NCBI RefSeq assembly: GCF_003253995.1
Contig: NZ_QKZL01000020.1
Location: forward strand, 30,021 to 68,616
Source: Palleronia aestuarii
GTDB taxonomy: Bacteria > Pseudomonadota > Alphaproteobacteria > Rhodobacterales > Rhodobacteraceae
Reading direction: 5' to 3'
Length of the DNA stretch: 38,596 bases
Shown here: piece after piece, positions 463 to 33,334 of the stretch
Layout: the number at the start of each line of letters is the position of its first letter
Position numbering within the stretch: position 1 is the stretch's first letter
Notes under the pieces: generated by a model
Seen by the model: only the letters and a program-made list of their open reading frames with translations
Databases searched by the model: none
What the model was told of the DNA's origin: nothing
Program-made: the position numbers and the translations under genes

Positions 463-505
463 GTGAGCCGGTGAGGCGCCACTGGTTCGAGCCCACCGGC
501 GAACG
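463..505 (+). repeat. Palindromic mini-element, copy C (in IS3 orfB)
   Basis: Arms GCCGGTG (467-473) and CACCGGC (494-500) pair perfectly around a 20-base loop containing GCGCCACTGGTTCGAG. The element splits the codons for an expected SNLRWCSDGFEYTCW stretch of OrfB, of which SNLR lies on one side and CSDGFEYTCW on the other, and shifts the frame. The consensus strand is the plus strand, antisense to orfB, unlike the other four copies. The unit aligns over about 43 columns with copies A, B, D and E in other transposase genes of this window. Confidence 0.72.
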
Positions 506-667
506 CAGGTTCGAACGCACGACGATGACCTTGCCGTCGTGGACATGCTCGGGACGCTCCGTGTATTTCCGTGCGAACAGCAGGTTGTGGGCCTTCATGA
601 TGCGACAGACCCGCTTGTGATTGACCGGCGCCAAGTCCCGAGCTCGAAGCTGCCGGTTCAGGAGCGC

Positions 668-710
668 GTCGCCAGTGGTCGCTCGGACCAGTGGCGCAAC
701 CACTGGCAAC
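668..710 (-). repeat. Palindromic mini-element, copy D (in IS3 orfB)
   Basis: Arms GCCAGTGGT (671-679) and ACCACTGGC (699-707) form a perfect 9-bp stem with a 19-base loop that reads GCGCCACTGGTCCGAGCG on the minus strand. It interrupts the OrfB stretch RPTYGYRR...LLNRQLRA, adding about 38 net bases and breaking the frame. The consensus strand is the coding strand of orfB. Loop and flanks match copy C in the same gene, while the arms differ. Confidence 0.72.
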
Positions 711-830
711 TCCGCCGGTAGCCGTAGGTCGGACGCGCTGCCACCAGCGCCGTGATCATTGGCACCACCGCCGCGTCTTGCGCTTTATGGTAGCGCCGCC
801 GCGGCTTTGTCTCCCCCTTCGACCGGTCGA

Positions 831-1279
831 TCAGGTTGGAACGGGCGACACCCAGAGTTTAGGCCACGACCTTAACCGGAAATCGTCCTTCAGCGGCGAC
901 CGCGCGAGCAAGGTCAGTTTTTTTGAGCGTGACTTGTCCAGAGCCTCGCGCAGGATTTCGGCCTCCAGCGTCTTGCGGCCGAGCTGGCGTTCGAGTTCGC
1001 GGATGCGGTCCTCCATCTGGCGGACGACCTGTCTCGCAGGCTCGACCTGGTGACGTCATCATCCTCGGACACGGCGACACTTCCCCCTTCGAGCATGAGC
1101 CGGCGCCAACGATACAGCAGGTTCGGTGCTGCGCTATTGCGGCGCGCAACCACCGAGATGCTGGCACGGTCGTCCAGCGTCTCTTCCACGATCCGCAGCT
1201 TCTCAGCCGCGGTCCAGCGGCGCCGACGGCCGCCATCGGTGATAATTTCTATCTCAGACATAAGCACGTGCTCAGGCAT
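831..1279 (-). pseudogene. IS3 transposase OrfA (HTH), frameshifted
   Basis: The first part reads as an IS3 OrfA: MSEIEIITDGGRRRRWTAAE followed by KLRIVEETLDDRASISVVAR, a helix-turn-helix of the HTH_Tnp_1 type. The C-terminal coiled-coil (MEDRIRELERQLGRKTLEAE) continues in another frame from about 1050. A single base gain or loss therefore separates the two halves. The gene precedes the orfB remnant on the same strand, as in intact IS3 elements. Confidence 0.8.
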
Positions 1280-1330
1280 ATGCCCAAGCCTCCATGGTTA
1301 TGCCTGAGTGTCCGGTCAAAACGGGGGCCA

Positions 1331-1660
1331 GTTCAACGGATTACGCCAGTCATTACGGCATGACCGGGCAATTGGAAGAAAATGAGTAGCGCGCCCATCG
1401 TAACCGGCTGCCGAGGACCGTCTACCGCGGAGAGGGGTCGAATTTTATGCTCCGTCGTTCCTGGACGTTGACAATGACGTCGTATCGAACAGAGGCAGGG
1501 ATGCGGCGCAAGGTGATCGTTGGTGCGGAAAGGCGTCGACGGGGGACCCGAGAACAGAAGCGCAGAGTGCCGTCAAAAATCGGCGTCGGCAGAGCGAAAT
1601 TGACCTTACCCTTGGATTAGTGCCGCGTTGATCCGGAAAATTGCGGTCACCGCACAATGT
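1331..1660. other. Intergenic stretch without recognised gene
   Basis: This stretch lies between the IS3 right end and the IS5 fragment. Open frames here (for example a 70-residue one on the minus strand at 1445-1657) have no recognisable motif and no convincing ribosome site. I see no repeat, RNA gene or terminator. Confidence 0.5.
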
Positions 1661-1860
1661 TCAGCGACAGTACGAAGACAGCAGGTAGGCATGGATCATG
1701 TCGTCGCTGCAGACATGCTGGCCACTCCCCCTGCAGCTCAGCGCCGCATCCCACGGCATCTTTGGGTCGAACCAGACAGTCAGCGAGCCATGCTTACGCA
1801 GTTCGGCATTTTCAGCGGCCCAGTCAAGTTGCGCTAGCGGATCGAAGTTGGTCGCATCAT
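1661..1860 (-). pseudogene. IS5 (IS903-like) transposase N-terminal fragment
   Basis: The minus strand encodes LDWAAENAELRKHGSLTVWF followed by DPKMPWDAALS and a degraded CSDDMIHAYL. This matches the start of IS5/IS903-type transposases (typically NWPAYNAALRRRGSLTVWFD, then YSDAAIQACL), as I recall them. The catalytic core is missing and the frame runs into unrelated sequence on both sides. A C-terminal piece of the same broad family sits at the other end of the window (38285 onward). Confidence 0.65.
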
Positions 1861-1992
1861 GCACTCTGGCTGTCTCACTGATTTGCCATTGTGTCTTCCA
1901 CCAGTACGGGGCTGTGCGACAAGGTCCTGGTAAGCGAGCTGTGCCGCCAGCGCCGGCAAACGGCGGTACCGGTCGCGGGTGTGGCATAGCTA

Positions 1993-3132
1993 CTATCGTG
2001 CCTCGCGCGTTGTAGCGTCGGCGAGGGTCGCACGGTCGATCTCGATGCCGAGGCCGGGGCCATCCGGGATCGCGATCATTCCGCCGTGCGGGACGAGCGG
2101 CGTCGTCAGCACGGTCTGCTGGAACGGGTGCTCGGTCCGGTCGAACTCCAACATCGGCGCGATGGGGGCGCCGCGCACCGGGTCGGGCGGCATCGCCGCG
2201 ATGAACTGGAGCGCCGCGGCGATCTGCACCGCCGTTCCCCACACGTGCGGGATCACGCGGATACCGAACAGGCTGGCAAGGTCGTGGATGCGCTTGGCCT
2301 CGGTGAAACCGCCGCAGCCGCCCACATCGGGTTGGAGGATGTCGACCGAGCGGCGCCGCAGCGCCTCGTACATGCCCCAGCGGGTGTGCCAGGTCTCGCC
2401 GCCGGCGACCGGCAGCGGCTGACCCGCGCGCACCGCGTCGTAGGCATCGAGTTGCTCGGGGACCACCGGCTCCTCGAACCACTTCACACCGTACTCGGCC
2501 GCCCTGCGTCCCACATCGAGGCTTTCCAGGACGTCATAAGCGTTGTTGGCGTCGATCATCAGGTCCATGCCGTCGCCCATCACCTCGCGCACGGCGGCGA
2601 TGACGCGCATGTCCTCCTCCACATCGAAGCCGATCTTGATCTTCGCCGCCTTGAACCCGTCCGACTTGTGGCGCTCCATGTCGAGCGCGTTGTCCTCCAC
2701 CCGGTCGACGCCTTCGCGTTTGAAGGCGCCGGTCGCGTATGCCTGGACCTCCTCGCGGAAGCGCCCGCCCATGAGGGTGGAGATCGGCACACCGAAGTGC
2801 TTGCCCTTGATGTCCCACAGCGCGATGTCAATCCCCGACAGCGCCGTCACCGTCAGCCCACGCTGGCCCTGGTGGCGCAGCGCGCTATAGAGTGTCGACC
2901 AGGTCTTCTCGGTTTCAAGCGGATTGCTGCCCGTGAGCCAGCCTGCATACGTCTCCACGATCGCTGCATTCGCCCAGGCCGGGCCGAGGCATTCGCCCCA
3001 CCCCGTCGTCCCGTCATCGCACACGATCTCTACAAGCGTGTGCGTGCGACGGGAGAACTTCATCGTCGCCGCCTCGTAGGGGACCTCCATCGGGGTATCG
3101 AGCACATGCGTGCGGACGAGGTCGATCTTCAT
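1993..3132 (-). CDS. gci: D-galactarolactone cycloisomerase-like enolase-superfamily enzyme
   Basis: This 379-residue enzyme belongs to the mandelate racemase/muconate lactonizing group of the enolase superfamily. It has the KxK base motif (Lys164-Ile-Lys166), metal ligands at Asp194 (MIDAN), Glu220/221 (WFEEP) and Glu246 (AGGET), and the general acid/base His296 (IPHVWG). The whole chain closely resembles my recollection of Agrobacterium Gci, for example ALSGIDIALWDIKGKH and EEPVVPEQLDAY. Gci isomerises galactaro-lactones during oxidative galacturonate/galactarate catabolism. The start is an ATG just after the regulator gene (67-bp gap), so the two are probably co-transcribed. A related sugar-acid dehydratase is the main alternative. 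Confidence 0.85.
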   Translation of the reverse strand: MKIDLVRTHVLDTPMEVPYEAATMKFSRRTHTLVEIVCDDGTTGWGECLGPAWANAAIVETYAGWLTGSNPLETEKTWSTLYSALRHQGQRGLTVTALSGIDIALWDIKGKHFGVPISTLMGGRFREEVQAYATGAFKREGVDRVEDNALDMERHKSDGFKAAKIKIGFDVEEDMRVIAAVREVMGDGMDLMIDANNAYDVLESLDVGRRAAEYGVKWFEEPVVPEQLDAYDAVRAGQPLPVAGGETWHTRWGMYEALRRRSVDILQPDVGGCGGFTEAKRIHDLASLFGIRVIPHVWGTAVQIAAALQFIAAMPPDPVRGAPIAPMLEFDRTEHPFQQTVLTTPLVPHGGMIAIPDGPGLGIEIDRATLADATTREAR

Positions 3133-3199
3133 CGCGGGTGTTTCCTGTTGCCTGGTGCGGCCGTAGGCCGGCTATCGTTCGTACAAAGTCGTCCCGGCC

Positions 3200-4003
3200 T
3201 CACCGGCCGGGCGTTGCGCGGCTGCGGTCTTCGTCGGCAGACGCCTCCGCGGACGGCGCCGGAGCGCCGGCATGGCTGAGCATGAGCGTGCGGTAGCGCT
3301 TCTGGCTCCATAAGAGGTGCGTGCGCATGGCTTGCCGGGCGCCATCCGGATCGCCGTTCATGATCGCTGCAATGATGGCGTCGTGCTCGGCAAGCAGCGT
3401 CTGCAAGTCTGGCAGAAGTTCGGAGCCGGGGCCGCGGACCGCCTTGCGCGGCAGCCCCTCGACCCCCATCGCCTCCAGAAAAGCCGCAAAGCGCGGGTTG
3501 CCCGAACCCAAGGCCACCGCGTGATGGAAGCCATAATCGGCATCGTTGCTCGGCTCGCCGCGCGCGATGACCGCGCGCAGTGTCTCGTTGGCCTCCATCA
3601 TGGCGACCTCCTGCGCGGCGGTCCGGCGCAGCGCGGCGAAGGCGGCCGTCTCCACCTCCACTGCCATGCGCAATTCCAGCATCTCCAGGATCGATGAGAT
3701 GTTCTGCGGGTCGACGGTCGTAAAGTCCAACGCGCGGGCCTTCGCCTCGCACACAAAGGCGCCGGAGCCGCGGCGGGAGACCAGAAGGCCATCGGCTCGC
3801 AGCACGGCGAGCGCTTCGCGGATGACGGTGCGGCTGACGCCGAACTGATCCACCAAGCGCACCTCTGCCGGCAGCTTGCCGCCGGTCTTGTACTCGCCGG
3901 CGCGGATCGATCGGCGCAGCCCTTCGGCGACCCGTTCCGCGCGGCTTTGCGACCCGGTGTGCAGTGGAGCCGAATTCTCGCCGGGGCGGCGTACCTGTTT
4001 CAT
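3200..4003 (-). CDS. GntR-family regulator, FadR/FCD subfamily
   Basis: This 267-residue protein is read from an ATG at 4003; an upstream in-frame start at 4060 is possible but lies in the promoter gap. The N-terminal winged helix carries GKLPAEVRLVDQFGVSRTVI and REALAVLRADGLLVSRRGSG. The C-terminal FCD domain keeps the likely metal/effector ligands: Asp and His in DADYGFHHAV, His in LLAEHDAII and His in MRTHLLW. FCD regulators usually sense carboxylic acids or sugar acids. It sits between gci (same strand) and a divergent TRAP binding protein, so it very likely controls both. Two candidate operators lie in the gap at 4067-4098. Confidence 0.88.
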   Translation of the reverse strand: MKQVRRPGENSAPLHTGSQSRAERVAEGLRRSIRAGEYKTGGKLPAEVRLVDQFGVSRTVIREALAVLRADGLLVSRRGSGAFVCEAKARALDFTTVDPQNISSILEMLELRMAVEVETAAFAALRRTAAQEVAMMEANETLRAVIARGEPSNDADYGFHHAVALGSGNPRFAAFLEAMGVEGLPRKAVRGPGSELLPDLQTLLAEHDAIIAAIMNGDPDGARQAMRTHLLWSQKRYRTLMLSHAGAPAPSAEASADEDRSRATPGR

Positions 4004-4066
4004 CTGTCCGTACGTACCCTGTCTCGCCTGATCACCAATGTACCAGACGCACCCTCGCAATACAAT

Positions 4067-4098
4067 TAGTCATACAACTTTACGCAAAGCAGTCGTAC
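4067..4098. promoter_or_regulatory. Pair of candidate GntR/FCD operators
   Basis: TAGTCATACAA (4067-4077) fits the TNGTNNNACNA pattern of FadR-type operators on both strands. A second GT-N3-AC core, GTCGTAC, lies at 4092-4098 inside the near-palindrome AGTCGTACT. The cores start 23 bp apart, about two helical turns. A possible -10 box TATAAC (4107-4112) for dctP follows directly. Both sites sit in the divergent gap between the regulator and dctP. The assignment is inferred from pattern and position only. Confidence 0.5.
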
Positions 4099-4187
4099 TG
4101 TTAATGTATAACGGGAATTAGGGCGGGGGAGTCGCTGGAGCCATGCCATCAGCGCGGCCGAGGTCCCGCAGTTTTTGGGAGGATACC

Positions 4188-5165
4188 TTGCGCACTATCA
4201 CATCACTTGTGCCCGCGATCGCGATTGCGGCGGGCCTGACCCTTGCCGCGCCCGCACAGGCCAAAACTCTAAAATTCGCGCATACCTACGAGACCAGCGA
4301 GCCTTACCACGAGGGCGCGCTTTGGATTGCCGATGAGATTGAGAAGCGCACCGAGGGGCGCTACGACATCGAGGTTTTCCCCGCCTCATCGCTGGGCAAG
4401 GAGGTCGACATCAACGAGGGTCTCGGCCTTGGGACCGTCGACATAATCTACACCGGCGCGCTGTTCGTCTCGACGAGTTACGGCCCGCTTGCCATCTCTG
4501 ATGCGCCCTACATCATGAGAGATTTCGACCACTGGCTTGCTTACCGCGAAAGTGGCCTGCTGAAAGAATTGTCGCAGGGGTATGAGGAGGCCACCGGTAA
4601 CCACCTCCTCAGCATCGTCTACCACGGGCAGCGCCACATCACGGCGAACCGGCCGATCCTCTCGCCGGAGGACATGAAAGGAATGAAGCTGCGCGTGCCC
4701 AATGCACCGCTTTTCCACCTGCTCACCGATCCGCTCGGCGCCAATGCCACTCCGATCTCCTTCGCCGAAGTTTATCTCGCTTTGCAGCAGGGCGTGGTGG
4801 AAGGGCAGGAGAACCCGCTCATCACCATCCGCGCCAAGCGCTTTTACGAGGTGCAGAGTGACATCTCGCTGACCGGCCATATCGCCAACACACTCCTCCT
4901 CCTGATGAGCGGCAACGCCTGGAACGAGCTCAGCGAGGCGGATCAGGCGATCTTCACCGAAGTCTTCGAAGAGGCCGCAGTGGAAATCACGAAAGATGTA
5001 CGCGTGCAGGAGGCCGAACTCGTGCAGTGGTTCCGCGACCAGGGCGTGAACGTCCACGAGGTCGATCGTGCGCCCTTCCGTGAAATTGTGCTGCCAGGCC
5101 TTACCGGCCCGAATGCGCCGTGGACGCAGGACCAGTTCGACCGTCTTCAGGCGCTCGCGAACTAA
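4188..5165 (+). CDS. dctP: TRAP transporter solute-binding protein (DctP family), orphan
   Basis: The start is taken as TTG at 4188, because GGGAGG (4177-4182) lies 5 bases upstream and the product then begins with a normal signal peptide (RTITSLVPAIAIAAGLTLAA, cleavage near AQA-KT). The upstream ATG at 4143 would add an odd basic leader. The mature part is a DctP domain with the substrate-carboxylate Arg region MKLRVPN and the hinge region ALQQGVVEGQENP. It should bind a sugar acid or dicarboxylate in the periplasm. No DctQ or DctM gene follows; transposase debris begins about 85 bp downstream. The transporter is therefore incomplete in this window, or relies on membrane subunits encoded elsewhere. 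Confidence 0.9.
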   Translation: MRTITSLVPAIAIAAGLTLAAPAQAKTLKFAHTYETSEPYHEGALWIADEIEKRTEGRYDIEVFPASSLGKEVDINEGLGLGTVDIIYTGALFVSTSYGPLAISDAPYIMRDFDHWLAYRESGLLKELSQGYEEATGNHLLSIVYHGQRHITANRPILSPEDMKGMKLRVPNAPLFHLLTDPLGANATPISFAEVYLALQQGVVEGQENPLITIRAKRFYEVQSDISLTGHIANTLLLLMSGNAWNELSEADQAIFTEVFEEAAVEITKDVRVQEAELVQWFRDQGVNVHEVDRAPFREIVLPGLTGPNAPWTQDQFDRLQALAN

Positions 5166-5249
5166 GAGCGGGCCTCGTTGTAAGAAGCCTACAGCGTTCG
5201 TTCGCGCTACTGGCCCGGTAACCGCGGCCCCTCGCACGAGGAACGGCCC

Positions 5250-5710
5250 TGAACCACGAGAAGCTCTGTCGGCTCTGCTGGCACGAGAGGCTACTGCGCT
5301 CTCTGAGGGCTGCGCAACCAGCTATGGCCTCCGTCAGCACGTCATTCCAAAGCTGTTACGGGACGGAGTTCACCAGCCGGGAATCCTCTGGGAGGCAGAT
5401 CAGAACGCGGCCCCCTGGCACGACATCGACCCCGTCAAGCCGCAGCAGAACGCCTTCATCGAGTCCTTCAGCAGAAGCCTCTGGGACGAACTGCTAAACT
5501 AGGAGATCTTCGATACCCCGGACGATGCCAAGAGCAAGCTGACGCTACGACGATAACGCCGTTAGGCCGCACTCATCGCTTGGAAACCCGACGCCACTCG
5601 AAGCGCGCCAAATGCTTCGGCAATTAGAGGGCTCCGAGCCCGGCGCGATCACCCGAAACGACTGGCCCGGCTACCAATCTCGCTTTCGCAGGCTTTCCCT
5701 ATAACCAACA
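5250..5710 (+). pseudogene. IS3-family (IS407-like) OrfB remnant, internally deleted
   Basis: Near 5251 the plus strand reads LNHEKLCRLCWHERLLRSLR, the HTH_21 boundary of an IS3 OrfB. From about 5360 it jumps to the C-terminal third: WHDIDPVKPQQNAFIESFSR, DELLN, a stop codon, EIFDTPDDAKSKL, and in a later frame RPHSSLGNPTPLEARQ. The DD(35)E core between these parts is missing. Stops and frame changes make it non-functional. Its position directly after the orphan dctP suggests that it took part in losing the downstream TRAP genes. Confidence 0.7.
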
Positions 5711-5855
5711 AACCGGCACCGGGCAGGTCACCTCCGGCAGACCCGGGACGGTCCAATTTCCATCAGCTTCACCGAGGGGTCTCGATTGAGGCAAAGCGCT
5801 TGTACCGCCGCATCGCAGGGTTCACGGTACCGCAATATGAGTGGGGTGAGTTGCG

Positions 5856-6710
5856 ATGCAGTGGCGTGGGCGTAGAGGAAGCAGCAATATCGAGGATCGG
5901 CGTGGCCGTAGGGGTGGCGCTGCGGCGATCGGCAGCGTGGGGGGGCTCGGCGTTGTCGCCGTGGTCGTGATCGGGTGGTTTCTGGGGGTCGACCTGACGC
6001 CGCTTCTTCGAGATCAGGAGATCTCGCTCGGGGGTGGCGGAGAAAGCCAGATCACTCAAGCCGACGAGGAAGCGGCAGAATTCGTCAGCGTCACGCTCGC
6101 CGATACGGAGGAAGTCTGGTCCGCGATTTTTTCTGAGCAGGTGGGCGAGGTCTACGAGCCGCCAACCCTGGTGCTCTTCAAGAACGTGACCCAAAGCTCA
6201 TGCGGCAACGCCTCTGGGGCAACCGGGCCATTTTATTGCCCTGGCGACCGCAAGATCTATCTCGACACCGCCTTTTTCACCACCATGTCCGAACGCCTGG
6301 GCGCGGAGGGGGATTTCGCCGCTGCCTACGTAGTAGCTCACGAGGTCGCGCATTACGTGCAAGACGAGTTGGGTATTCTCGGAGAAGCCAATCGGATCCG
6401 CTCGCAGGCAAGCCAGATCGACGCGAATGCCATATCCGTCAGGATCGAGCTTCAAGCCGATTGTCTTGCCGGCATCTGGGCGCGCGCCGCTGGCGACCGT
6501 TTCGGCTCGCTCGATCAGGGCGACATCGAGGAGGCGATGAACGCTGCCAAGCAGATCGGCGACGACACGCTGCAGCGCCGTGCAGGACGCGTTCCCGCAC
6601 CGCATACCTTTACCCACGGCACTTCGGAGCAGCGCGCAAAATGGTTCGAAATCGGGTATGGGTCGGGAGAGGTTCCCGCCTGCAATACGTTCAGCGCGGA
6701 GCAACTTTAA
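5856..6710 (+). CDS. YpfJ-family putative neutral zinc metallopeptidase
   Basis: This 284-residue protein matches the usual length of the Zn_peptidase (YpfJ/KPN_02809) family. A basic N-terminal tail (residues 1-22) is followed by one membrane helix (about 31-44). The lumenal or periplasmic part carries the zinc motif HEVAHYVQD (His162, Glu163, His166) and the third-ligand region IELQADCLAG (Glu198). Paired cysteines (SSCGNA and FYCPG) are typical. It starts at an ATG with a weak purine-rich GTGAG upstream. It stands alone between two transposase remnants. The substrate is unknown for the family. Confidence 0.85.
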   Translation: MQWRGRRGSSNIEDRRGRRGGAAAIGSVGGLGVVAVVVIGWFLGVDLTPLLRDQEISLGGGGESQITQADEEAAEFVSVTLADTEEVWSAIFSEQVGEVYEPPTLVLFKNVTQSSCGNASGATGPFYCPGDRKIYLDTAFFTTMSERLGAEGDFAAAYVVAHEVAHYVQDELGILGEANRIRSQASQIDANAISVRIELQADCLAGIWARAAGDRFGSLDQGDIEEAMNAAKQIGDDTLQRRAGRVPAPHTFTHGTSEQRAKWFEIGYGSGEVPACNTFSAEQL

Positions 6711-6732
6711 GCGTTAGGCGAACCGTTGAGTT

Positions 6733-7280
6733 GGCATTGTCAGGTGTTTGACCGCGACGCGGGAGTAGTCGCTTGGAACCGCTTATGCCGACAGTTCGGT
6801 CGTGTAGCCTGCCCAATGGTCGAACGCGTCCCGTCCGGCATGGCGATCGGAATGGGCGGAGAGGCGGTGACGGTGGGGGCGGAAGATGGCGGCGGCCTGG
6901 TCGTGGACCGACAGGAACCGCTAGGCCTGTCGCGTCGATCGCCCGCCACAACCAATACTTCATTCCGTCGATCTCGAGGACGACATCGTCGAGGTGCCAC
7001 GTGTCGGCCGGCCCGGGCCGGTCACGCCATATTTTCTCGGCGATCGGTGTCCCGCATTTCGCCGCCCAAACCCGGATCGTCTCGCAGGAGACGACGACCC
7101 CGCGTTCGGCGAGGAGATCCTTGCCGTCGTGCAGGCCGAGGGCGAAGCGGTGATAGGCTCAGACGGCATATCCGATCACGGTTCGCGGGAACCGATGTCC
7201 CTTGAGGCAGGAGAGATCGTCGGGGTTCAGCATCCGGAGGGGCTGGCTGGGCGTCGCCGGGCCGTCAGCATGACAATCCC
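6733..7280 (-). mobile_element. Internally deleted IS6-family element, copy 1 (548 bp)
   Basis: The left end is GGCATTGTCAGG (6733) and the complement of the right end is GGGATTGTCATG (7280), 10 of the first 12 bases matching. Between them, on the minus strand, lie the transposase N-terminus (CLKGHRFPRTVIGYAVWAYH, then AERGVVVSCETIRVW and DTWHLDDVVLEIDGMKYWLW) joined directly to its C-terminus (FLSVHDQAAAIFRPHRHRLS, then DAFDHWAGYTTELSA). The catalytic middle is gone. The junction falls at a short shared GCGTCGAT/GCGTTGAC-like sequence. The element is closely related to the remnant at 30083. Confidence 0.75.
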
Positions 7281-7659
7281 GCGGGATGGGCTTGTCGAAC
7301 CCCGGGCGCATTCGACGGATGCACGGGCCAAGACAATTCACCTAACGAACCGAGCCCGCGCCCTGCACGCTTCGGCAAAGGCCGCCGCGTGAAAGGTCAA
7401 CGCGATGGCCCTCGGACACTTCGACGAGGGCAACTGCGATCTCTTCGTGTCCACGATGCGCAGTGCCGTCGAGAAGCTGAAGGCGGGAGAGGCCAGTTAG
7501 CGTGAGGGCAACGAAGCGCGCCGCGACTACGATCGTCAGCCCCGATGCCGGGCAGAGAACTATCTGCTCACCCGCGCCTAGTTGGAAGCTGAAACGCGGG
7601 CGTGCCTGCGCTCCGGAACGGCCATTCCCCCGCCTTCCCGCACCGGTCGAAATAGGTGC
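7281..7659. other. Gap without recognised gene
   Basis: The gap lies between the deleted IS6 element and the adenine deaminase stop codon. A 31-residue plus-strand frame at 7404-7499 (MALGHFDEGNCDLFVSTMRS, then AVEKLKAGEAS) looks codon-like but is not recognised and has no clear start signals. It may be the remains of a gene. No terminator was identified. Confidence 0.4.
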
Positions 7660-9540: not shown

Positions 9541-9629
9541 TGGGTCAGTCAACTATCCGGTTGGAATTTTGCGGCAGGAACTATCCGGAAAGAACATGTC
9601 TTCACGGGTCTCGCAATCGAGGCGTCGTC

Positions 9630-11740: not shown

Positions 11741-11892
11741 GTCGGGTCTCCTTCTGGAGTGTCGGTGTGTGTCTCGGGGCATGTCTTGCGCCGTTGACCC
11801 ATACCTAATGCCGCAGCGCAGCATTTAAACCGGGATACGCTGCACTGCGGCAAGAAAGTTTGTGCCGTGGAGAAGACCAGCGGTAGGCGAGG

Positions 11893-12688
11893 TCATGTTG
11901 ACAAATGGCGTAGCCAGAGGCGGATCGACGTGATGTCGACGAAGCCCAGGAAGCTCTCTGCACTCTTGTCGTATTGGGTTGCGACCCGGCGGGCATTCTT
12001 CAGTTTGTTGAAACAGCGCTCTATCAGGTTGTGCAGCCGATAGAGCGATCGTTCCACACCAACCCGCATCTTGCGGGATTTCGGCATAGGGATCACCGGT
12101 AAGGCATTGCGGTGTTCGACAGCTGTCCGGATGTGATCCGCATCATAGCCCCGATCGGCGAGCAAGACGCTCGGGGCGGGCATGTTGTCGGCCATCACCA
12201 GATCGAAGCTGCGGTAATCGGACGTTTGACCCGGCGTGATCTCGGTTCTCATGGGCAGGCAGCTCGGCATCGTCCTCGGACCGATGACGGACAATGCCTC
12301 GCCGTTAACGAGGAGGTGGAGCTTGGTCGTGAAACCACCACGAGAACGGCCGAGACCTTGGCGCGGAGTCCCCCTTTTGAGCCTGCTGCCTGATGGTGGG
12401 AGCGGATCACCGTACTATCGATCATTTGGAGCGCGTCCGGCACGGCACCGCGGCGGTTCAGCGCTTCCATGATATCCTCCCAGAGGCCGGCCAGCGTCCA
12501 GCGCCGAAACTGCCGGTAGACGCTGGACCACTTGCCGAACTCTCACGGCAGGCCGCGCCACGGAGCCCCGGTCCGGGCGATCCAGAAGACGCCATCCAGA
12601 ACACGCCGGTGATTGCGGGTTTGCGCCCGTTCGAAGCGCGGGCGGCCAGGATGAAGGGCTCAAAAAAAGCCCACTCCTCGTCTGACAT
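11893..12688 (-). pseudogene. IS5-family transposase (DDE), multiply broken
   Basis: In order, the pieces are MSDEEWAFFEPFILAARASN, a one-base loss before FWIARTGAPWRGLP, a stop codon in place of a Glu-region codon (LP*EFGKWSS), MEALNRRGAVPDALQMIDST (first Asp), LLADRGYDADHIR (second Asp) and RCFNKLKNARRVATQYDKSA (Glu region). The carboxy end IRLWLRHLST is intact. A frame change occurs at AAAAGGGGG near 12370. Some IS5 elements use programmed slippage, but the other lesions show decay. A 36-base palindromic insert adds LSVIGPRTMPSC before LPMRTEITPG. Confidence 0.82.
12262..12302 (-). repeat. Palindromic mini-element, copy A (in IS5 transposase)
   Basis: On the minus strand the arms GGCATTGTCC and GGACGATGCC (12266-12298) pair with one G-T wobble around the loop GTCATCGGTCCGA. 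It adds 36 bases in frame, between the codons of NGEA and LPMRTEI, giving the extra residues LSVIGPRTMPSC. CGAG occurs on both sides of the hairpin, as in copy B. The expected uninterrupted protein is recalled from the family, not looked up. Confidence 0.72.
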
Positions 12689-12889
12689 CAGGTCTCATGC
12701 CAAAATGGTCTCCATCGCAGATACCAGCTTGGATCACGCCTTCCAGTCAGCGTGAATCCCTTCTTTCAACACAGCCTAGGCAACCATCAACGGCGATCTC
12801 ACAGGATGTAGGGCCTGGCCTTTGTCACCGGAATCGGTCGGTTTCGAGAAAGTCCCGTTAAGTCGCAGCCCCTTGCGGCTATACGGATA

Positions 12890-25314: not shown

Positions 25315-25372
25315 CCGCGCTTGCATGTGGGAGGAGCGGGCCGGCTCGGCCTGCGCAGAGGAGGAGAACGAG

Positions 25373-26593
25373 ATGATAGGAACGACACGGCGTACCTTCG
25401 TCGCCGCTGTTATCGCGGCGATCGCCGCGGGCGGCACGGCAGCGGCGCAGGACGATCCGATCCGGATCGGGGCCATCAATCCCTATTCTGGCCAGCTTGC
25501 ATTATACGGGACCGAGGTCACGCGGGGCTACGAGCTCGCCGCCGACCAACTCAACGCCAATGGCGGGCTCCTGGGATCGCAGGTGGAGGTCGTTCGCGGC
25601 AACGCCGCGAGCCCGCAGGAGGGGATCGCCGTGGTCGAGAGGCTTGCCGGTCGCGACGACGTCGATGCCTTCATCGGTACCTATCTCAGCGCGGTATCGG
25701 GGGCCGCGTCCGAGGCGGCGCTGAACTACAACAAGCTCTACTGGGATACGAACGCGATCGCCGCGGGCCTGACCGAGCGTGGCTTGCCGAACTTCGTGCG
25801 GTCGGGCCCCTATGCCACCACGTTCGCCGACGCCTCCGTCGAACTGGTGATCGATGCGCTCGCGCAGGAACTCGGGAAGGATCCCTCCGAACTCCGCGTC
25901 TGGCTCGAGCACGAGGAATCCGTCTACGGAACCTCGATCTCCGAACGCCAAGAAGCGCAGTTCGAGGACGCGGGTGTCGAGGTCGTCGGAGTTGGCTCGC
26001 ACGATTACCGCTCCATCGACCTGACCGACAGCGTGCTGCGAGCGAAGGACGCGGACCCGGATGTCTTCATCCAGACGGGCTACGTTCCGGATGGGAATCT
26101 TCTCCTGCGCACCATGCGCGACCAGGATTTCGATCCCAATGCGATCGTGTTCGTCGGGACCGGCGATACGGCCGAGACACTGCAAGCGATGGGGGAAAAG
26201 GGGGTCGAGGGCCTGCTCGTCGTGTCCTATCCCCGTCCCGGCATCTCGGAGGAATTCGGGCCGGGCTCCGGCGCCTACCTGGAGGCCTACCGCGAGAAGT
26301 ACGGTTCGGACCCGGTCGCGCCGCAGGGGATGGCCGCCTATGTCGGGTTCCAGATCATGGCCGAGGCCGTGGAGAAGGCGGGCAGCTTCGATCCCGCGGA
26401 GGTAACCGCGATACTGGGCGAGTTCGACGAACCGCAGGGCACCTACGCCACCGGCTTCGGCGCCCGGTTCGACGAGAACAAGCAGAACGTCCTCGCCTAT
26501 CCGACGGTGATCCAGTGGCAAGGCGGTGAGCCGGTCACGGTATTCCCCGAGGAAGCAGCCGGCGGCTCCAAGATGACGGGTTTCGGAGGCTAG
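25373..26593 (+). CDS. Branched-chain amino-acid-type ABC transporter binding protein
   Basis: This 406-residue periplasmic protein (Peripla_BP_6/LivJ family) starts at ATG 25373 after GAGGAGAA. The signal region TTRRTFVAAVIAAIAAGGTA ends near AAAQ-DDP and has a twin-arginine-like start. The domain reads IRIGAINPYSGQLALYGTEV, ELAADQLNANGGLLGSQVEV and MAAYVGFQIMAEAVEKAG. Ligands of this family range from amino acids to aromatic and short-chain acids. It heads the transporter half of the operon, 58 bp after DUF35. Confidence 0.9.
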   Translation: MIGTTRRTFVAAVIAAIAAGGTAAAQDDPIRIGAINPYSGQLALYGTEVTRGYELAADQLNANGGLLGSQVEVVRGNAASPQEGIAVVERLAGRDDVDAFIGTYLSAVSGAASEAALNYNKLYWDTNAIAAGLTERGLPNFVRSGPYATTFADASVELVIDALAQELGKDPSELRVWLEHEESVYGTSISERQEAQFEDAGVEVVGVGSHDYRSIDLTDSVLRAKDADPDVFIQTGYVPDGNLLLRTMRDQDFDPNAIVFVGTGDTAETLQAMGEKGVEGLLVVSYPRPGISEEFGPGSGAYLEAYREKYGSDPVAPQGMAAYVGFQIMAEAVEKAGSFDPAEVTAILGEFDEPQGTYATGFGARFDENKQNVLAYPTVIQWQGGEPVTVFPEEAAGGSKMTGFGG

Positions 26594-26656
26594 GCCGCGA
26601 TTGGCGGCGATGCTTCGGCATCGCTGCCGACGCTGCAGGCTTCTTGGGGGAGGAGA

Positions 26657-27547
26657 ATGGCAGCTTTTCTGAACATCGTCACAGTAGGCCTCCTGCTCGG
26701 CGGGATCTACGGCCTCGTGAGCATGGGCCTGAACGTGATATTCGGGGTGATCCGCATCGTCAATTTCGCCCAGGGCGAACTGGTGATGCTCGGCATGTAC
26801 GGCGCCTACATGAGCTGGGCGCTTCTCGGGATGGATCCCTACCTTTCGGTCCTGATCGTCGTCCCCGGCCTCTTCGTTCTAGGCATGATCCTGCAGCGTT
26901 TCGTCCTCCAGCCTTTGCAGAACGAACCTTTCATGCAGATCTTCGCAACGTTCGGATTGCTGATGTTCTTCCAGAACCTCGTCCTCGGCATCACGGGCGG
27001 CACGGGTTATTCGGTGCGCTCCGATATCGCGTCGGAGGTGATCCGGATCGGCCCGGTGAACCTGACGCTGTCTCGCCTCATCGTGCTCGCGACAGTCATC
27101 GTGGTGGCGCTCGGGATGAACTGGTTCGTGAAGTACACGATGCCGGGCAAGGCCGTCCGCGCCGTGACGCAGGACCGGCGCGCGGCGCGGCTGATGGGGA
27201 TCAATGTCGAATGGGTCTTCATGCTGACCTTCGGGGCGGGTGCCGCGCTCGCGGGAATGGCTGGGGTCCTTCTCTCGCCGATCTACACGCTCTCGCCCCA
27301 GATCGGCAGCAACTTCATCCTGGCGGCGTTCGCGGTCGTGGTTCTCGGCGGGCTCGGAAGCGTCTGGGGGGCGTTCATCGGCGGGTTCGTCATCGGGCTC
27401 GTGGAGGCATTCTCGGGCTATTACTTCGATCCTGCCCTGAAACACGCGATCTGGTTCCTGATCTTCATCGCGGTCTTGCTGGTCCGTCCCGGTGGGCTCT
27501 TCGGGATCGCCGGAGCAGAGGAGATGGGTCTTCGTGAGCAAGATTGA
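26657..27547 (+). CDS. livH: ABC transporter permease, LivH family
   Basis: This 296-residue inner-membrane permease has the LivH features GGIYGLVSMGLNVIFGVIRI then VNFAQGELVMLGMYGA near the N-terminus. The EAA-type loop near DRRAARLMGINVEWVFMLTF is followed by ALAGMAGVLLSPIYTLSPQI. About eight hydrophobic segments are visible. GGGGGAGGAG precedes the ATG. The end overlaps livM by 14 bases. Confidence 0.92.
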   Translation: MAAFLNIVTVGLLLGGIYGLVSMGLNVIFGVIRIVNFAQGELVMLGMYGAYMSWALLGMDPYLSVLIVVPGLFVLGMILQRFVLQPLQNEPFMQIFATFGLLMFFQNLVLGITGGTGYSVRSDIASEVIRIGPVNLTLSRLIVLATVIVVALGMNWFVKYTMPGKAVRAVTQDRRAARLMGINVEWVFMLTFGAGAALAGMAGVLLSPIYTLSPQIGSNFILAAFAVVVLGGLGSVWGAFIGGFVIGLVEAFSGYYFDPALKHAIWFLIFIAVLLVRPGGLFGIAGAEEMGLREQD

Positions 27548-28577
27548 GGCGACGGAACTGGGCGGCCGCCGGACCACCGGAAAAGGTGATCGGCATATCA
27601 CGTCGCTCGCGACGGAACTCTTGCGGATCGCGGGTCTGGCAGGTCTTTTCGCGATCGCGCTCGTGGTTCTGCGGGACGATCCGTTCCTTCTGAACATCCT
27701 GGCTTATACCTGCCTCTTCGGCGGGCTCGCTACGAGCTGGAACATCATCGGCGGGTTCGGGGGTCAGTTCTCGCTCGGTCACGGGGTATTCTTCGCCGCA
27801 GGGGCCTATACCACGGCCAATCTTTACTTCCATTTCGGCATCTCGCCCTGGCTGACCCTCATCCCGGCCGTCGTCGTCGCATCCGCGGTGGCGCTCGCCG
27901 TGTCCTGGCCAACCTTCCGGCTCAAGGGGCCGTTCTTCGCCATCGCGACGCTTGCCTTGAACGAGGTGGCGTTCGTGCTCGCCAACTATTTCGACGGTCT
28001 GACGGGGGGGCCGCGCGGCATGATGCTGCCGTTCCGGGCCGGGTTCGAGAACATGGTCTTCACCTCGAAACTGCCCTACGCGATCATCATGATCGGCTTC
28101 CTCCTGGTCACGCTCGTCACCGCGGCGATCGTGTTGCGCAGCCGGCTCGGGTATTACCTCCAGGCCGTCCGCCTGGACGAGGATGCGGCCCGGTCCGTCG
28201 GTATCGGCGTTCTCAGGGTCAAGCTCATGGGCATGGCAGTGAGCGCGGGCCTGACCGGGGTCGGCGGTTCGCTCTTCGCGATGTACATCCGGTACGTCGA
28301 TCCCCCGACGCTGCTGAGCATCCAGGATGTCGGTGTGCGCTTTCTCCTGATCTCGCTGATCGGCGGTGTCGGAACCCTCTATGGTCCGCTCGCCGGGGCG
28401 CTGCTGATCGTGCCGCTGGAGTTCCAGCTTCGCGCGACCCTCGGCAGCGCGTTGCCGGGCGGCAATTTGATGGTTCTGGGGGCCCTGCTCGTCATCTTCG
28501 CGCTCTTCATGCGCAAGGGTCTCGTCGGAACGGTGTCGGACATCTGGGACAGGTACGGGAGGCGGCGCGATGAGTGA
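27534..28577 (+). CDS. livM: ABC transporter permease, LivM family
   Basis: The start is placed at GTG 27534, inside the end of livH, with GAGGAG 10 bases upstream; an ATG at 27492 is possible but would enlarge the overlap. The product has 347 residues. WNIIGGFGGQFSLGHGVFFA and GLTGGPRGMMLPF are LivM signatures. VRLDEDAARSVGIGVLRVKL is the ATPase-contact loop. The stop overlaps livG by 8 bases. It forms the membrane channel together with LivH. Confidence 0.88.
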   Translation: MSKIEATELGGRRTTGKGDRHITSLATELLRIAGLAGLFAIALVVLRDDPFLLNILAYTCLFGGLATSWNIIGGFGGQFSLGHGVFFAAGAYTTANLYFHFGISPWLTLIPAVVVASAVALAVSWPTFRLKGPFFAIATLALNEVAFVLANYFDGLTGGPRGMMLPFRAGFENMVFTSKLPYAIIMIGFLLVTLVTAAIVLRSRLGYYLQAVRLDEDAARSVGIGVLRVKLMGMAVSAGLTGVGGSLFAMYIRYVDPPTLLSIQDVGVRFLLISLIGGVGTLYGPLAGALLIVPLEFQLRATLGSALPGGNLMVLGALLVIFALFMRKGLVGTVSDIWDRYGRRRDE

Positions 28578-29298
28578 TGCCACGGCCCTCGCGGCCGAGA
28601 ATCTCACCAAGCGCTTCGGCGGCCTGACCGCCGTGGGTGGATTGAACTTCTCGCTGCGGCGAGGTGATCTGCTCTCGATCATCGGCCCGAACGGGGCGGG
28701 CAAGACCACGCTGTTCAACCTCCTGACCGGGCAGCATCCGCCCAGCGATGGCCGCGTGATCCATGAAGGCCGCGACATCTCCGCCCTCGCGCCGGAACAG
28801 AGAGCCCGCCTCGGCCTAGGACGGACGTTTCAGATCTCGAAGACGCTCACCTCGATGACGGCGCTCGAGAACGTCATGATCGGCGCATTCCTGCACCGCG
28901 GAAAACTCGCCGCGGCTGCCGAACATGCGATGCACATTCTCGACCGCGTCGGTCTTGCCCGCCGCGCGTCGGTAAGGGCCGGTACCCTAACGCTGAGTGA
29001 GCGGCGGCGGCTCGAGATCGCGCGGGCACTCGCGCTCGACTGTTCCGTCCTGCTTCTCGACGAGGTTATGGCGGGCCTGAACCAACGGGAGGTGGACGAC
29101 GTCATCGGCCTCGTCAGGCAGCTCCATGCCGAGGGACTGACGGTGCTCGTAATCGAGCACAATCTCAAGGTCGTCCGTGCCTTCGAGAACCGGGTGATCG
29201 TGATGGATTTCGGTCGGATGATCGCCGACGGGACGCCGGACAAGGTTCTGTCCGACCCGCAGGTGGTGGAAGCGTATCTGGGGAAGAAGGCGGAATGA
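28570..29298 (+). CDS. livG: ABC transporter ATPase, LivG family
   Basis: This 242-residue ATPase has Walker A GPNGAGKT (residues 39-46), Walker B VLLLDEV and the switch His in VIEHNL. The signature region reads LTLSERRRLEIARAL instead of the more usual LSxGxxRRLEIARAL, a mild deviation. LGRTFQISKTLTSMTALENV is the Q-loop region typical of LivG. It overlaps livM by 8 bases and livF by 4, so the ATPase pair is translated in concert. Confidence 0.92.
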   Translation: MSDATALAAENLTKRFGGLTAVGGLNFSLRRGDLLSIIGPNGAGKTTLFNLLTGQHPPSDGRVIHEGRDISALAPEQRARLGLGRTFQISKTLTSMTALENVMIGAFLHRGKLAAAAEHAMHILDRVGLARRASVRAGTLTLSERRRLEIARALALDCSVLLLDEVMAGLNQREVDDVIGLVRQLHAEGLTVLVIEHNLKVVRAFENRVIVMDFGRMIADGTPDKVLSDPQVVEAYLGKKAE

Positions 29299-30011
29299 GC
29301 ATCGGGCTTGCGATCGAGAACCTCCATGCGGGTTACGGGCCGGCGACAGTGCTCGAGGATGTTTCGCTCACCGTGAATGCAGGCGACATAGTCGCCATCG
29401 TCGGGGCCAACGGGGCGGGCAAGAGCACGCTTCTGAACACGATCGCGGGGCTCGTTCCGGCAAGTTCGGGGCGAATGCGCTTCGGCGACACGGATATCGC
29501 GGCGACGCGCGCCGATGCCCTTCCCCGCAAGGGCCTCGTCCTCGTCCCGGAAGGCGGGCGGCTCTTTCCCTTCATGACAGTCCGGGAAAACCTCGAGGTC
29601 GGCGGGTTCAGCCGCCGCAAATCGGCCGACTTCTCGACATGGCTCGACGAAGTGATGGACCTGTTCCCTATTCTGCGGGAACGCCAGGGACAGCTCGCCG
29701 GATCGCTCTCGGGGGGCGAGCGACAGATGTGCGCGATCGCGCGGGCAGTGATGAGTCAGCCGGATCTGATCATGCTGGACGAGCCCTCCGTTGGCCTGTC
29801 GCCAAAGCTGGCCCACGAGGTACTCGGCCTGGTGCAGACGCTGCGGGACACGAAGGATGTCACCGTGATCCTCGTCGAGCAGAACGTCGGCGAGGCCCTC
29901 GCCGTCTCCGATCAGGCACATGTCCTCGATCACGGGCGCATCGTGCGTTCCGGCCCCGCGGCCGAACTGGCAGACGATCCCGCGATACAGAAGGCGTATA
30001 TGGGGTTGTAA
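29295..30011 (+). CDS. livF: ABC transporter ATPase, LivF family
   Basis: This 238-residue ATPase has Walker A GANGAGKST (37-45), signature SLSGGERQMCAIARAVM, Walker B LIMLDEPSVGLSPKL and His switch LVEQN (Gln in the His position, as usual in LivF). It ends the operon. The 71 bp before the IS6 remnant show no strong hairpin, so the terminator may have been lost when the element arrived. Confidence 0.93.
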   Translation: MSIGLAIENLHAGYGPATVLEDVSLTVNAGDIVAIVGANGAGKSTLLNTIAGLVPASSGRMRFGDTDIAATRADALPRKGLVLVPEGGRLFPFMTVRENLEVGGFSRRKSADFSTWLDEVMDLFPILRERQGQLAGSLSGGERQMCAIARAVMSQPDLIMLDEPSVGLSPKLAHEVLGLVQTLRDTKDVTVILVEQNVGEALAVSDQAHVLDHGRIVRSGPAAELADDPAIQKAYMGL

Positions 30012-30082
30012 GGCGTCCCTCGACGTTCGGTACGTGACGGAGGAACGATCTTCCGGATTGTCGTCAGTCTACCCCTCGCTGG

Positions 30083-30800
30083 GGCATTGTCAGGTTGTTC
30101 GACCGCGACGCGGAAGTCGTCACCCGGAACCGCTTATGCCGACAGGTCGGTCGAGTAGTCTGCCCAAAGGTCGAACGCCTCCCGTCCGGCATGGCGATAG
30201 GAACGGGCGGAGAGGCGGCGACAGTGCAGGCGGTCTGGCCGTGAACCGACAGGAACCGCTGCGCCTGTCGCGTTGACATGAACCGCCCCATGACCTTTTT
30301 TCGTCTCCTCGTATGCCGATGCGATGCTTAGGCCGCGACGTTGATCCCCTTGTGGTGGCGATGCTCTAAGCCACGGGGCGAGTTTTGCCGTCGCGGCGGC
30401 GTAGGACCGAAGTTTGTCGAGCTTCATCACCCGCGGCAGATCCCATCTTCTAAAGAGCTTGCGCATGAACCGTCTGGCGGTAACGGCGTGGCGGCGTGAC
30501 CGGGCGAGGATGTCCAGGATATCGCCAGCCGCGTCGATGGCCCACCACAACTAATGCCTTAGTCCGATGATCTTGAGGACGACCTCGTCGAGGTGCCACG
30601 TGTCGGTCGGCCCGGGCTGGTCGCGCCGTACCTTTGCGGCGATCTGCGTCCCGAACTTCGCCAACCAAACGCGGATCGTTTCGTACGAGACAACAACCCC
30701 GCGTTCGACGTGGAGAACCTCGCCGTCTCGCAGGTGTCGTGTTGCTTCACGTAATTCTCTTACCGCTTGCCTAATCGAGCGTGTTGCCTGCTGACGTGGT
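30083..30800 (-). pseudogene. IS6-family transposase remnant, copy 3 (nearly full length)
   Basis: The left end GGCATTGTCAGG (30083) matches the 6733 element, and the first ~170 bases are close copies. On the minus strand, in order, lie ERGVVVSYETIRVWLAKFGT, DTWHLDEVVLKIIGLRH then a stop, LWWAIDAAGDILDILARSRR, VMKLDKLRSYAAATAKLAPW, a shifted LEHRHHKGINVAA and FMSTRQAQRFLSVHGQ. At least one stop and two frame changes break it. The right end was not found; the N-terminal region merges with the C-terminus of another transposase around 30790. Confidence 0.75.
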
Positions 30801-30987
30801 ATGGGGCCTTGGTTCGCCGTATGGTTCGGGGCTCCCGACCTCCCCAATGAGCCGTTGGACGGCTTGCCGCCGCCATTCTCCCACGCGCCGTTGCAGCGTG
30901 TGAACCTGCCGCAAGGTGTATCGTTCTAAGTAGAGGGCCTTAAAACGACAAGGAGTTCGTGCGCGGTCTGATCGGGGCGTTCTCTAA
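30800..30987 (-). pseudogene. Transposase C-terminus, left part (split by IS66)
   Basis: The minus strand reads RPDQTAHELLVV, then ERYTLRQVHTLQRRVGEWRR and QAVQRLIGEVGSPEPYGEPR. This is the C-terminal tail seen in a group of integrase-core transposases, recalled as having RPDQTARELLVEFQARYPGR and YSLGQLRTLQRR. The upstream part continues across the IS66 element at 33604-33866. The frame is damaged. Confidence 0.6.
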
Positions 30988-31057
30988 GTAGGCCTCCGGC
31001 GGGAGCCGCCTGCTGCGGGTGGGGGTTTGTCGGCTATCTGACCTTATGGGTGCCCAT

Positions 31058-31462
31058 ATGGACAGACCGCAGGTGATGACGCTGGACGTGGTGGACACGG
31101 GCTGGCGGCGTCGCTGGACGGATGCGGAGAAGCAGCGGATCATTGAGGAGAGCTTTGCGGCGCCCCGGCAGGTGGCGGCGACGGCGCGACGGCACGGGAT
31201 GTCGCGCTCGTTGCTGACAACGTGGCGGCGGCTGCATCGGCAAGATCTCCTGTCGAGGGCTGGAACTCCCGCGCCGGGATTTGCATCGGTGACATTGGCT
31301 CCCGATCCGCCACCCACGCCTGCACCGCGGTTTCCTGTCGTGGATTGCGGTCGTGTCGAGATCGTGCTGCGGAACGACCGCTGAACCATCATCGGCGCGG
31401 GCATGGACCCGGCTGCCCTGGCGCAGCTGATCGCGGTGGTCGAGCGGGCATGATCGCGCTGC
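31058..31462 (+). pseudogene. tnpA: IS66 TnpA (Orf1) with internal stop
   Basis: The N-terminal half is a helix-turn-helix protein: RRRWTDAEKQRIIEESFAAP, then ATARRHGMSRSLLTTWRRL. After VEIVLRND comes Arg and then TGA (31382-31384) in the place of another sense codon. The frame continues with TIIGAGMDPAALAQLIAVVE, the expected TnpA tail. One base change (CGA to TGA) would explain it. Confidence 0.78.
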
Positions 31463-31797
31463 CGCCGGGCGCGCGGGTCTAGCTGGCCAACGGGGTGACG
31501 GACATGCGGAAGGGCATGCCGGGGCTTGCGCTGTTGATACAAGAGGGGCTGGGGCGCGACCCGCATGCCGGCGACCTGTACGTGTTCCGCGGCCGCTCGG
31601 GATCAATGGTCAAGGTTCTCTGGCACGACGGCGTGGGCATGTCGCTCTACATCAAGAATCTCGAGCGCGGGCACTTCATCCGGCCCGTTCCGAAGGACGG
31701 CGCGGTGGCGATTTCGGCGGCGCAGCTGACCTATCTGCTGGACGGCATCGACTGGCGCAATCCGCGCCATACCTGGCGGCCGGCAGTGGCCGGATAA
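31450..31797 (+). pseudogene. tnpB: IS66 TnpB (Orf2) with internal stop
   Basis: MIALPPGARV is followed by TAG and then LANGVTDMRKGMPGLALLIQ, GDLYVFRGRSGSMVKVLWHD and NLERGHFIRPVP. The family has Trp at the stop position (RVWLA), so TGG to TAG is likely. A restart at the Met in TDMRKG could still yield most of the protein. The start overlaps the end of tnpA. Confidence 0.8.
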
Positions 31798-32482
31798 TCT
31801 ACCCTGCAAGGGAGATTGCGCTCTAACTTGCTGTGAAGGCGTTCTAATATCCGGCATGCCCGCCGATGCTCCATCCGACTTCGAAGCCTTGCGCGCCGCC
31901 CTCGCGGCATCCGAGGCGCGGGCAGACGCGATGGCGGCCGAGATCGCCGCGGTGCGGGCGCAGGCCACTCGGGCCCAGGCCGCCGCATCGGGCGACGCGG
32001 CGGTGATCGCGACGCTCAAGCTGGAGATCGAGAAGCTGCGCCGCGCGCTTTACGGACACCGCTCCGAGCGCAGCGCCCGGTTGCTCGACCAGTTGGAGTT
32101 GCAGCTCGAGGAGATCGAGGCCGCGGTGACCGAGGACGAGCTTTTGGCCGAGCAGGCTGCCCGCCGCGCGGGGACCGATCCATCACCGACCTCCCGACGC
32201 CATCCCGGCCGCAAGCCGTTCCCCGCCCACCTGCCGCGCGAGCGCGTGGTGATCGAGGCGCCCTGCGCCTGCATGGCCTGCGGCTCGGGCCGGATCGTCA
32301 AGTTGGGCGAGGACATCACCGAGACCCTGGAGGTCGTGCCCCGGTCTTGGAAAGTAATCCAGACCGTGCGCGAGCGGTTCGCCTGCCGCGACTGCGAGCG
32401 CATCACCCAACCGTCGGCACCCTTTCATCCCACGCCGCGCGGGTGGGCGGGCCCGAGCTTCCTCGCCATGCTCCTGTTTGAG

Positions 32483-32522
32483 AGCGAGCCTTGTCCGCCA
32501 TTGGTCCAAGGACAATGGCGAG
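32483..32522 (+). repeat. Palindromic mini-element, copy B (in IS66 tnpC)
   Basis: Arms GCCTTGTCC and GGACAATGGC (32488-32519) pair except for one A missing from the left arm. The loop is GCCATTGGTCCAA. GCGAG stands on both sides (32484 and 32518). It lies between the codons of LLFE and GQHQPLNRQ, where the family usually has Lys-Phe. Restoring the missing A would both complete the stem and restore the reading frame. It aligns with copy A at about 36 of 41 positions. Confidence 0.75.
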
Positions 32523-33292
32523 CGGGCAGCACCAGCCGCTGAACCGGCAGGCCGAGCGCTATGCGCGCGAGGGCGTCGAGTTGAGCCAGTCGACGCTGGC
32601 AGACCAGGTCGGCGCGGCCGCCGCGGCGCTCGCGCCGCTGCACGCGCGGATCGAGGCGCACGTCATGGCCGCTACGCGTCTGCACGGAGACGATACGACC
32701 GTGCCGGTGCTGGCGAAGGGTCGGACCCGAACCGGACGGCTGTGGGTCTACGTGCGCGACGACCGTCCCTTCGGTGGGCAAACCCCGCCGGCAGCACTGT
32801 TCCGCTACTCCCCCGACCGGCGCGGCGAGCATCCGGAGGCGCATCTCGAAGCATGGTCCGGCATTCTCCAGGCGGACGCCTATGCCGGCTTCGGAGGCCT
32901 TTATGCCGAAGGTCGCAACCCGGCTCCGGTCGTGTCCGCGCTCTGTTGGGCGCATGCGCGACGTAAGTTCTACGAGCTGGCCGACATCGCCGCGGGCACG
33001 CGACGCGGAAAGGCCGCGCCGTCGATCTCGCCACTCGCCTTGGAAGCCGTGCGGCGCATCGACGGGATCTTCGATGCCGAGCGCGCCATCAATGGCGCCA
33101 GCGTGGACGCGCGCCTCGACGCACAGCGCGAGACGATCGCGCCGATGGTCGCGGATCTCGAGCGGTGGATGCGCGACGAGCGTGCCCGCCTGTCCCGCCA
33201 CGCCCCCGTCGCCAGGGCAATGGACTACATGCTCCGCCGCTGGCCGGGCTTCGCGACCTTCCTCGAGGACGGCCGCGCCTGCCTCACCAACA

Positions 33293-33334
33293 GCGAGCCT
33301 GTGAACGCCACCGGTTCGAGAGAACAGGCGAACG
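33293..33334 (+). repeat. Palindromic mini-element, copy E (in IS66 tnpC)
   Basis: Arms GCCTGT (33297-33302) and ACAGGC (33324-33329) flank a loop with GCCACCGGTTCGAG. It adds 39 bases in frame, giving SEPVNATGSREQA between ACLTN and NAERALRG, where IS66 TnpC proteins as I recall them have only LTNNAAERALRG. AAC codons border both sides. The insert lies next to the catalytic Glu (AERAL). Flanks GCGAG and GCGAACG match copies B and C. Confidence 0.72.

Follow-up and report, generated by a model that had tools for sequence, protein, structure and literature searches.

Small palindromic repeats are old puzzles of bacterial genomes, and many of them are without a known enzyme. In the parts of the literature cited here, Rickettsia palindromic elements (RPEs) are described as small palindromes within reading frames, belonging to several families (PMC10969869, PMC3733652). 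They are about 150 bp long and lie in varied metabolic genes (PMC10969869), and those of R. conorii end in CGTC (PMC3733652). Repetitive extragenic palindromes (REPs) of the GTAG and CGTC super-families are presented there as hairpins of 20-40 bp in many copies, mostly intergenic; the CGTC types are frequent in alphaproteobacteria and the GTAG types go with Y1 transposases (PMC3733652). In this study, we focused on a stretch of 38,596 nucleotides from Palleronia aestuarii (contig NZ_QKZL01000020.1, positions 30,021 to 68,616; hereafter the window), in which five short hairpin units lie inside transposase genes of insertion sequences (IS). These units are members of a real, widespread family of mobile mini-hairpins in Rhodobacterales. 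They work like REP or RPE elements, yet fail defining features of both.

As in RPEs, the units consist of a conserved palindrome with a compensatory stem, and some of them are readable through in frame. The analogy with RPEs drawn in a sequence-only reading of the window holds to this extent. However, the units are under a third as long (~41 bp), often break the frame, lie in IS genes, end in RYGAG/CGARY and replace 4-5 bases. Placement in varied cellular genes was not observed: 29 of 30 and 27 of 29 units in the two sets described below are near IS genes, and no unit was found in a cellular gene among the assigned sets. The units resemble REPs in being small multi-copy hairpins, but they have no unpaired GTAG or CGTC tag, their ends being RYGAG...CGARY, and they lie in IS genes, with only relatives of a TYG-end type between genes. 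The Y1 enzyme that goes with GTAG types is present in one of 14 genus genomes, which is not that of P. aestuarii (the source genome). Miniature inverted-repeat transposable elements are likewise small and non-autonomous and have inverted repeats, whereas the units show no target site duplication and replace 4-5 bases. Group II introns nest in IS elements, and group IIC types prefer terminators. The units are similar to them as mobile elements preferring other mobile DNA, but are only ~41 bases long, and the reverse transcriptase domain is absent in three of the five genus genomes with the most units.

The five units proposed by the sequence-only reading are all present, with coordinates agreeing within 1-2 bases, and the tests below support the proposal that they form a palindromic mini-element family within transposase genes of unrelated IS families (IS3, IS5 and IS66). 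Units 1 and 2 lie in opposite orientation in the transposase gene of an IS3 element (about 10-1330, minus strand), which is ~82% identical to an annotated copy in Paracoccus sp. MC1862 (IS3 family transposase). Unit 1 (463-504, plus strand; 42 nt, GTGAG...CGAAC) is antisense and replaces 5 nt, a net gain of 37; unit 2 (668-710, minus strand; 43 nt, GTTGCC...GGCGAC) is sense and replaces TCACC, a net gain of 38. The edges close to GCGAG/GCGA ascribed to all five units do not apply to unit 2, which has a second end type with TTG instead of GAG beside the left end. Unit 3 (12262-12302, minus strand; 41 nt, GCGAGGC...GCCGAGC) is sense in the transposase gene of an IS5 element (about 11880-12770, minus strand) with ISPme2-like relatives, and replaces 5 nt for a net gain of 36. 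Units 4 and 5 are both sense in an IS66 tnpC gene (31856-33579, plus strand). Unit 4 (32484-32523, plus strand; 40 nt) replaces 5 nt, adds a net 35 and breaks the frame of the gene; unit 5 (33293-33333, plus strand; 41 nt) replaces 5 nt and adds a net 36, that is, 12 additional codons. Of the five, units 3 and 5 alone leave the reading frame intact. The loop pattern (GYCAYYGGTYCRAG), searched exactly, matches the window five times, at the five units and nowhere else; with two mismatches allowed there are 11 window matches, which is not above chance. The 42-nt stretch across unit 4 is found identically at G006:C34:8833-8874, where the host gene encodes a Mutator-type transposase (L110).

The units are extra sequence. 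When the window genes were compared with unit-free relatives (three of IS3, including that of Paracoccus sp. MC1862, three of IS5 and five of IS66), exactly 5 bases stood at the unit site in all 19 unit-by-relative comparisons, whatever the unit length (3/3 for each of units 1, 2 and 3; 5/5 for units 4 and 5). The view that these segments are ordinary transposase sequence fails, since unit-free relatives exist for all three IS. An empty relative was available, among the loci collected, for 128 of 181 units with distinct flanks. The number of bases replaced was 5 at 78 sites, 4 at 31, 7 at 10 and other values at 9, in a table in which IS5 and IS3 are overrepresented, many loci having been collected for resemblance to IS elements of the source genome. 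Nine of the ten sites with seven are of the TYG-end type, whose ends were set one base too wide per side, so that they fit 5; unit 2 gave 7 by this bulk procedure and 5 by the window comparison. No target duplication was seen at the empty-site comparisons, and 4-5 bases are lost instead. In 62 distinct empty targets, A or G stands at -1 in 97%, A at -3 in 63% and G at +1 in 77%. Among 81 copies, 38 are 41 nt long and 43 are 40, 42 or 43 nt; a 41-nt unit with 5 bases lost adds 36, and so the frame is kept. The orientation is sense for 42 and antisense for 30 of the 72 units with a reference hit. Codon phases 1:2:0 are 21:10:8 for sense and 2:10:18 for antisense units, but the sites are not independent and no claim is drawn from these values. 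Translational bypass or splicing of the unit was ruled out, as removal of the unit alone leaves the frame 4-5 bases short.

The fold of the units is also real. Each copy folds with an R-Y pair, tandem G.A and A.G, a G-C pair and a stem, of at most 9 pairs, that encloses the conserved loop GCCAYYGGTYCRAG. In 38 distinct 41-base units, 88.8% of cells are paired and 10 of 12 pairs have double-sided changes. Double-sided compensatory cells number 92 in these units versus 27 in shuffles, and the covariation score is 0.574 versus 0.181 when shuffled and at most 0.10 when slid. GAG faces CGA (38 of 39 are CGA, one is CAA), which gives the tandem G.A and A.G plus G-C, and this part is near-invariant. 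The outer dinucleotides are reverse-complementary in 65 of 81 distinct copies with unit ends (22 GC/GC, 21 GT/AC, 13 AT/AT, 6 AC/GT, 2 CT/AG and 1 CC/GG), a count that left out 52 contexts without such ends. Folded singly and compared with 200 shuffles, four window units beat nearly all (z -2.9, -5.6, -4.1 and -2.7), and the fold of unit 5 (33293) alone is weak (z -1.5, with 16 of 200 shuffles equally good). RNA folding of the window units alone gave the closing pair and the 2x2 loop in three of the five.

Further copies are numerous. The loop pattern has 57 matches in the source genome, which cluster into 32 groups, and the reversed-pattern control has none. Four of the 57 (on C7, C8, C9 and C26) were discarded as chance matches, being without unit ends and with no transposase hit nearby. 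Among 60 relatives, 46 matches were found in G001 and 16-19 in each of G002, G006, G011, G020 and G031, with 0-2 for the reversed pattern. Plasmid matches came from 40 records, every one with a Rhodobacterales name (taxonomy lines were checked for the retrieved records only, the others being judged by name). A covariance model of 38 units, applied with E up to 0.01 to 149 genomes of the same family, found matches in 83, one of which is the source genome; these counts are lower bounds, as the scan took at most 43 candidates per genome under strict filters. In a class-wide draw, 15 of 240 genomes matched the model, including the source genome and one relative. Outside the family, only G225, G322 and G386 were below 1e-6, all in or beside transposase genes. 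Phage records gave no match to the units. The single Rfam match among 15 loci (E 0.38, with E up to 1 allowed) was attributed to chance. A literature search at the level of titles and abstracts found no description of this hairpin family. The carriers of the family are a group of marine and soil bacteria.

The copies lie almost wholly within IS DNA, and this bias is strong. Of the 53 remaining matches in the source genome, 51 are in or beside (up to ~350 bases) transposase genes, several of them judged by neighbouring Pfam hits and one (C34:819) by a short hit; plain intergenic placement was shown for none of the 53. The best match per genome, assigned by tblastn or Pfam in 30 of the 83 genomes, was in or within ~200 bases of an IS gene in 29. 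The hosting families, whose names we in part presume from Pfam domains, are IS3, IS5, IS256 (Mutator), IS630-like, IS1380-like, IS1182-like, IS21-like and others. In six of the 30 genomes, 27 of 29 armed units had a transposase hit at a distance of no more than 120 bases; one of the 27 is located in or next to an IS21 helper gene (L315). By the same 120-base rule, only 465 of 20,000 random placements (2.3%) in 400 kb of the source genome fell near an IS gene. IS-like DNA makes up ~1-2% of this sample, ~50 units of the whole source genome lie in DNA of this kind, and intergenic DNA should exceed IS-like DNA several-fold.

The IS copies that bear units multiply, as is indicated by an IS5 group with the same units on three contigs of the source genome. 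Four units and two of another palindrome lie in this group. The junction at 463 is common to the window and a Paracoccus marcusii plasmid (L159). In the IS5 group, variable sites are distributed 19:13:25 by codon position, with 14 in 217 insert columns; for comparison, the values between diverged copies were about 65:55:145. These ratios suggest that this one multiply hit group decays close to neutrally. Some frames are open despite the unit, such as istA of P. liaowanqingii, and the unit at IS5 site 4 is read in frame in several copies. On P. marcusii pKGP1 (L168), an annotated IS3 frame of 461 codons includes five unit loops, and could serve to test whether a transposase of this kind is still active.

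On balance, we think it probable that the units are a non-autonomous mobile hairpin family of Rhodobacterales, mostly 40-43 bases long, with a strong bias to IS DNA. The unit may move as a folded single strand, either RNA or single-stranded DNA, presumably helped by a trans-acting enzyme. Insertion would take place at a target resembling (A/G)N(A/G)-NNNNN-G, where the empty sites show that the unit, in either orientation, has taken the place of the central 4-5 bases, with no target duplication. Judging from the density of copies, the IS bias would arise at insertion, and the placement of nearly all examined copies in mobile DNA hints at a process that seeks out such DNA. Shared junctions indicate that IS copies with units then increase in number and pass between replicons and genera. 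They are probably moved in trans by intact relatives, because the one multiply hit IS5 group evolves almost neutrally. As for the enzyme, the Y1 transposase domain (PF01797) was absent in 13 of the 14 genus genomes, the source genome included; only G001 has it (7 matches), besides many units (L190-L196). The reverse transcriptase domain (PF00078) was found in six of the 14. The source genome (G000), with one partial match, and G001 are among these six, but the unit-rich G002, G006 and G011 have none. Both were rejected as the mobiliser, the former being in one genus genome that is not the source genome and the latter being in none of eight genus genomes, among them unit-rich ones.

Several observations weigh against this interpretation. 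No mobilising enzyme was found when the Y1 and reverse transcriptase domains were searched in the 14 genus genomes. The units differ in length, and at 31 sites the loss is 4 bases and not 5; the empty sites were those of relatives. A second pairing, of part of the loop with the right arm, likewise covaries when judged on inner pairs only, so the active fold may be an alternative one. As for location, L204 and L206 among the 29 best matches score below the Pfam curated cut-off and L222 is a short hit. The count of 27 of 29 used reference proteins partly from the same unit-bearing loci and repeats some best-per-genome units. L224, L331, L333 and two source-genome copies are without an IS assignment, the latter two sharing a single context and lying each at a contig end (C40:17242 and C51:10785). 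Loci collected as lookalikes of source-genome IS inflate the IS5 and IS3 shares, while the best-per-genome set is unaffected. The weak class-wide match in G303 (E 1.4e-4) adjoins cellular genes, and is among the few such matches whose surroundings were looked at. Moreover, TYG-end relatives of the units lie between genes in G023, G019 and G031.

A tentative alternative, to which we give some weight, is that the units insert everywhere without targeting and survive or spread only in IS, which are dispensable and multiply. This is consistent with the multiplication of unit-bearing IS copies and their crossing of genera, as well as with the decay of the multiply hit IS5 group. Group II introns, a known case of mobile DNA nested in other mobile DNA, also speak for it. 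However, 51 of 53 source-genome copies are in IS genes while IS-like DNA is only ~1-2% of the 400 kb sample, an argument that presupposes a similar tolerance of intergenic insertions. In addition, some units lie in transposase frames that are otherwise open, as in istA of P. liaowanqingii.

It is rather unlikely that a process recognizes IS DNA as such across unrelated families, writes hairpins into it by replacing five bases, in a reaction resembling no transposition known to us, and restrains IS genome-wide. We likewise regard as unlikely, and somewhat more doubtful still, a host or plasmid function that recognizes IS DNA and inactivates it with inserted hairpins, an effect comparable to repeat-induced inactivation in fungi. 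The near-exclusive placement in IS genes of many families would be expected of such a function, and single genes carry as many as five units (L168), or four together with two other palindromes. The unit in or beside the IS21 helper gene (L315) is also consistent with IS DNA itself being the target. On the other hand, the 38 of 81 copies of 41 nt keep the frame with 5 bases lost and would inactivate poorly, unit-bearing IS copies still multiply, and no candidate system was found.

It is improbable that the units persist through in-frame translatability, as palindromes that code for protein, in the manner of the Rickettsia elements. The gain of 36 by 41-nt units, the 461-codon IS3 frame of pKGP1 with its five unit loops and the in-frame reading at IS5 site 4 would agree with this. 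However, 43 of 81 copies have a length of 40, 42 or 43 nt, both orientations occur (42 sense versus 30 antisense), variation in the loop affects all three codon positions, and no cellular gene was shown to hold a copy. It is scarcely credible that the units are ordinary REP elements which a Y1 (RAYT) transposase moves, for in spite of a similar size and hairpin and the existence of intergenic relatives, the units have no GTAG tag, lie in IS genes rather than between genes and replace 4-5 bases, and 13 of 14 genus genomes, the source genome included, have no Y1 transposase domain.

The mobile hairpin family stands out by its insertion signature, which is both exact and unusual, by the number of its empty sites, by a covarying fold and by how extremely it prefers IS DNA. 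It makes testable how palindromes without an enzyme of their own move, and whether anything in bacteria tells mobile DNA from other DNA. The units may also account for transposases of Rhodobacterales that are broken and carry no annotation.

The intergenic TYG-end relatives are part of a further repeat. This repeat is terminator-like and begins with AAATACYYCGGGG; G023, G031 and G019 have 33, 37 and 59 intergenic copies of it, respectively, and it exists with and without the hairpin. At 30 of its loci (L246-L275), the middle is occupied by varied small hairpins, the TYG-end relatives among them. The second palindrome of the IS5 copies (L128, L139 and L150) is ~47 bases long (TCGTCGGGnGATC..CCACTGG..TCCTCCTCA) and replaces ~5 bases, judged by eye. 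Sites with its pattern number six in the source genome, two in G002 and a doubtful one in G011; those of the L128 locus in the source genome are at G000:C12:5104-5125 and 5467-5488. As for other features of the window, the IS3 copy (10-1330) is without ~70 bases that its relatives have near the 3' end of the transposase gene, and it has ~11 additional bases in orfA. Positions 6726-6900 and 29920-30276 of the window encode a nearly identical short sequence (MPT.RS.SLP.GRT.PVRHGDRNGRRGGD) and are probably pieces of another repeated IS.

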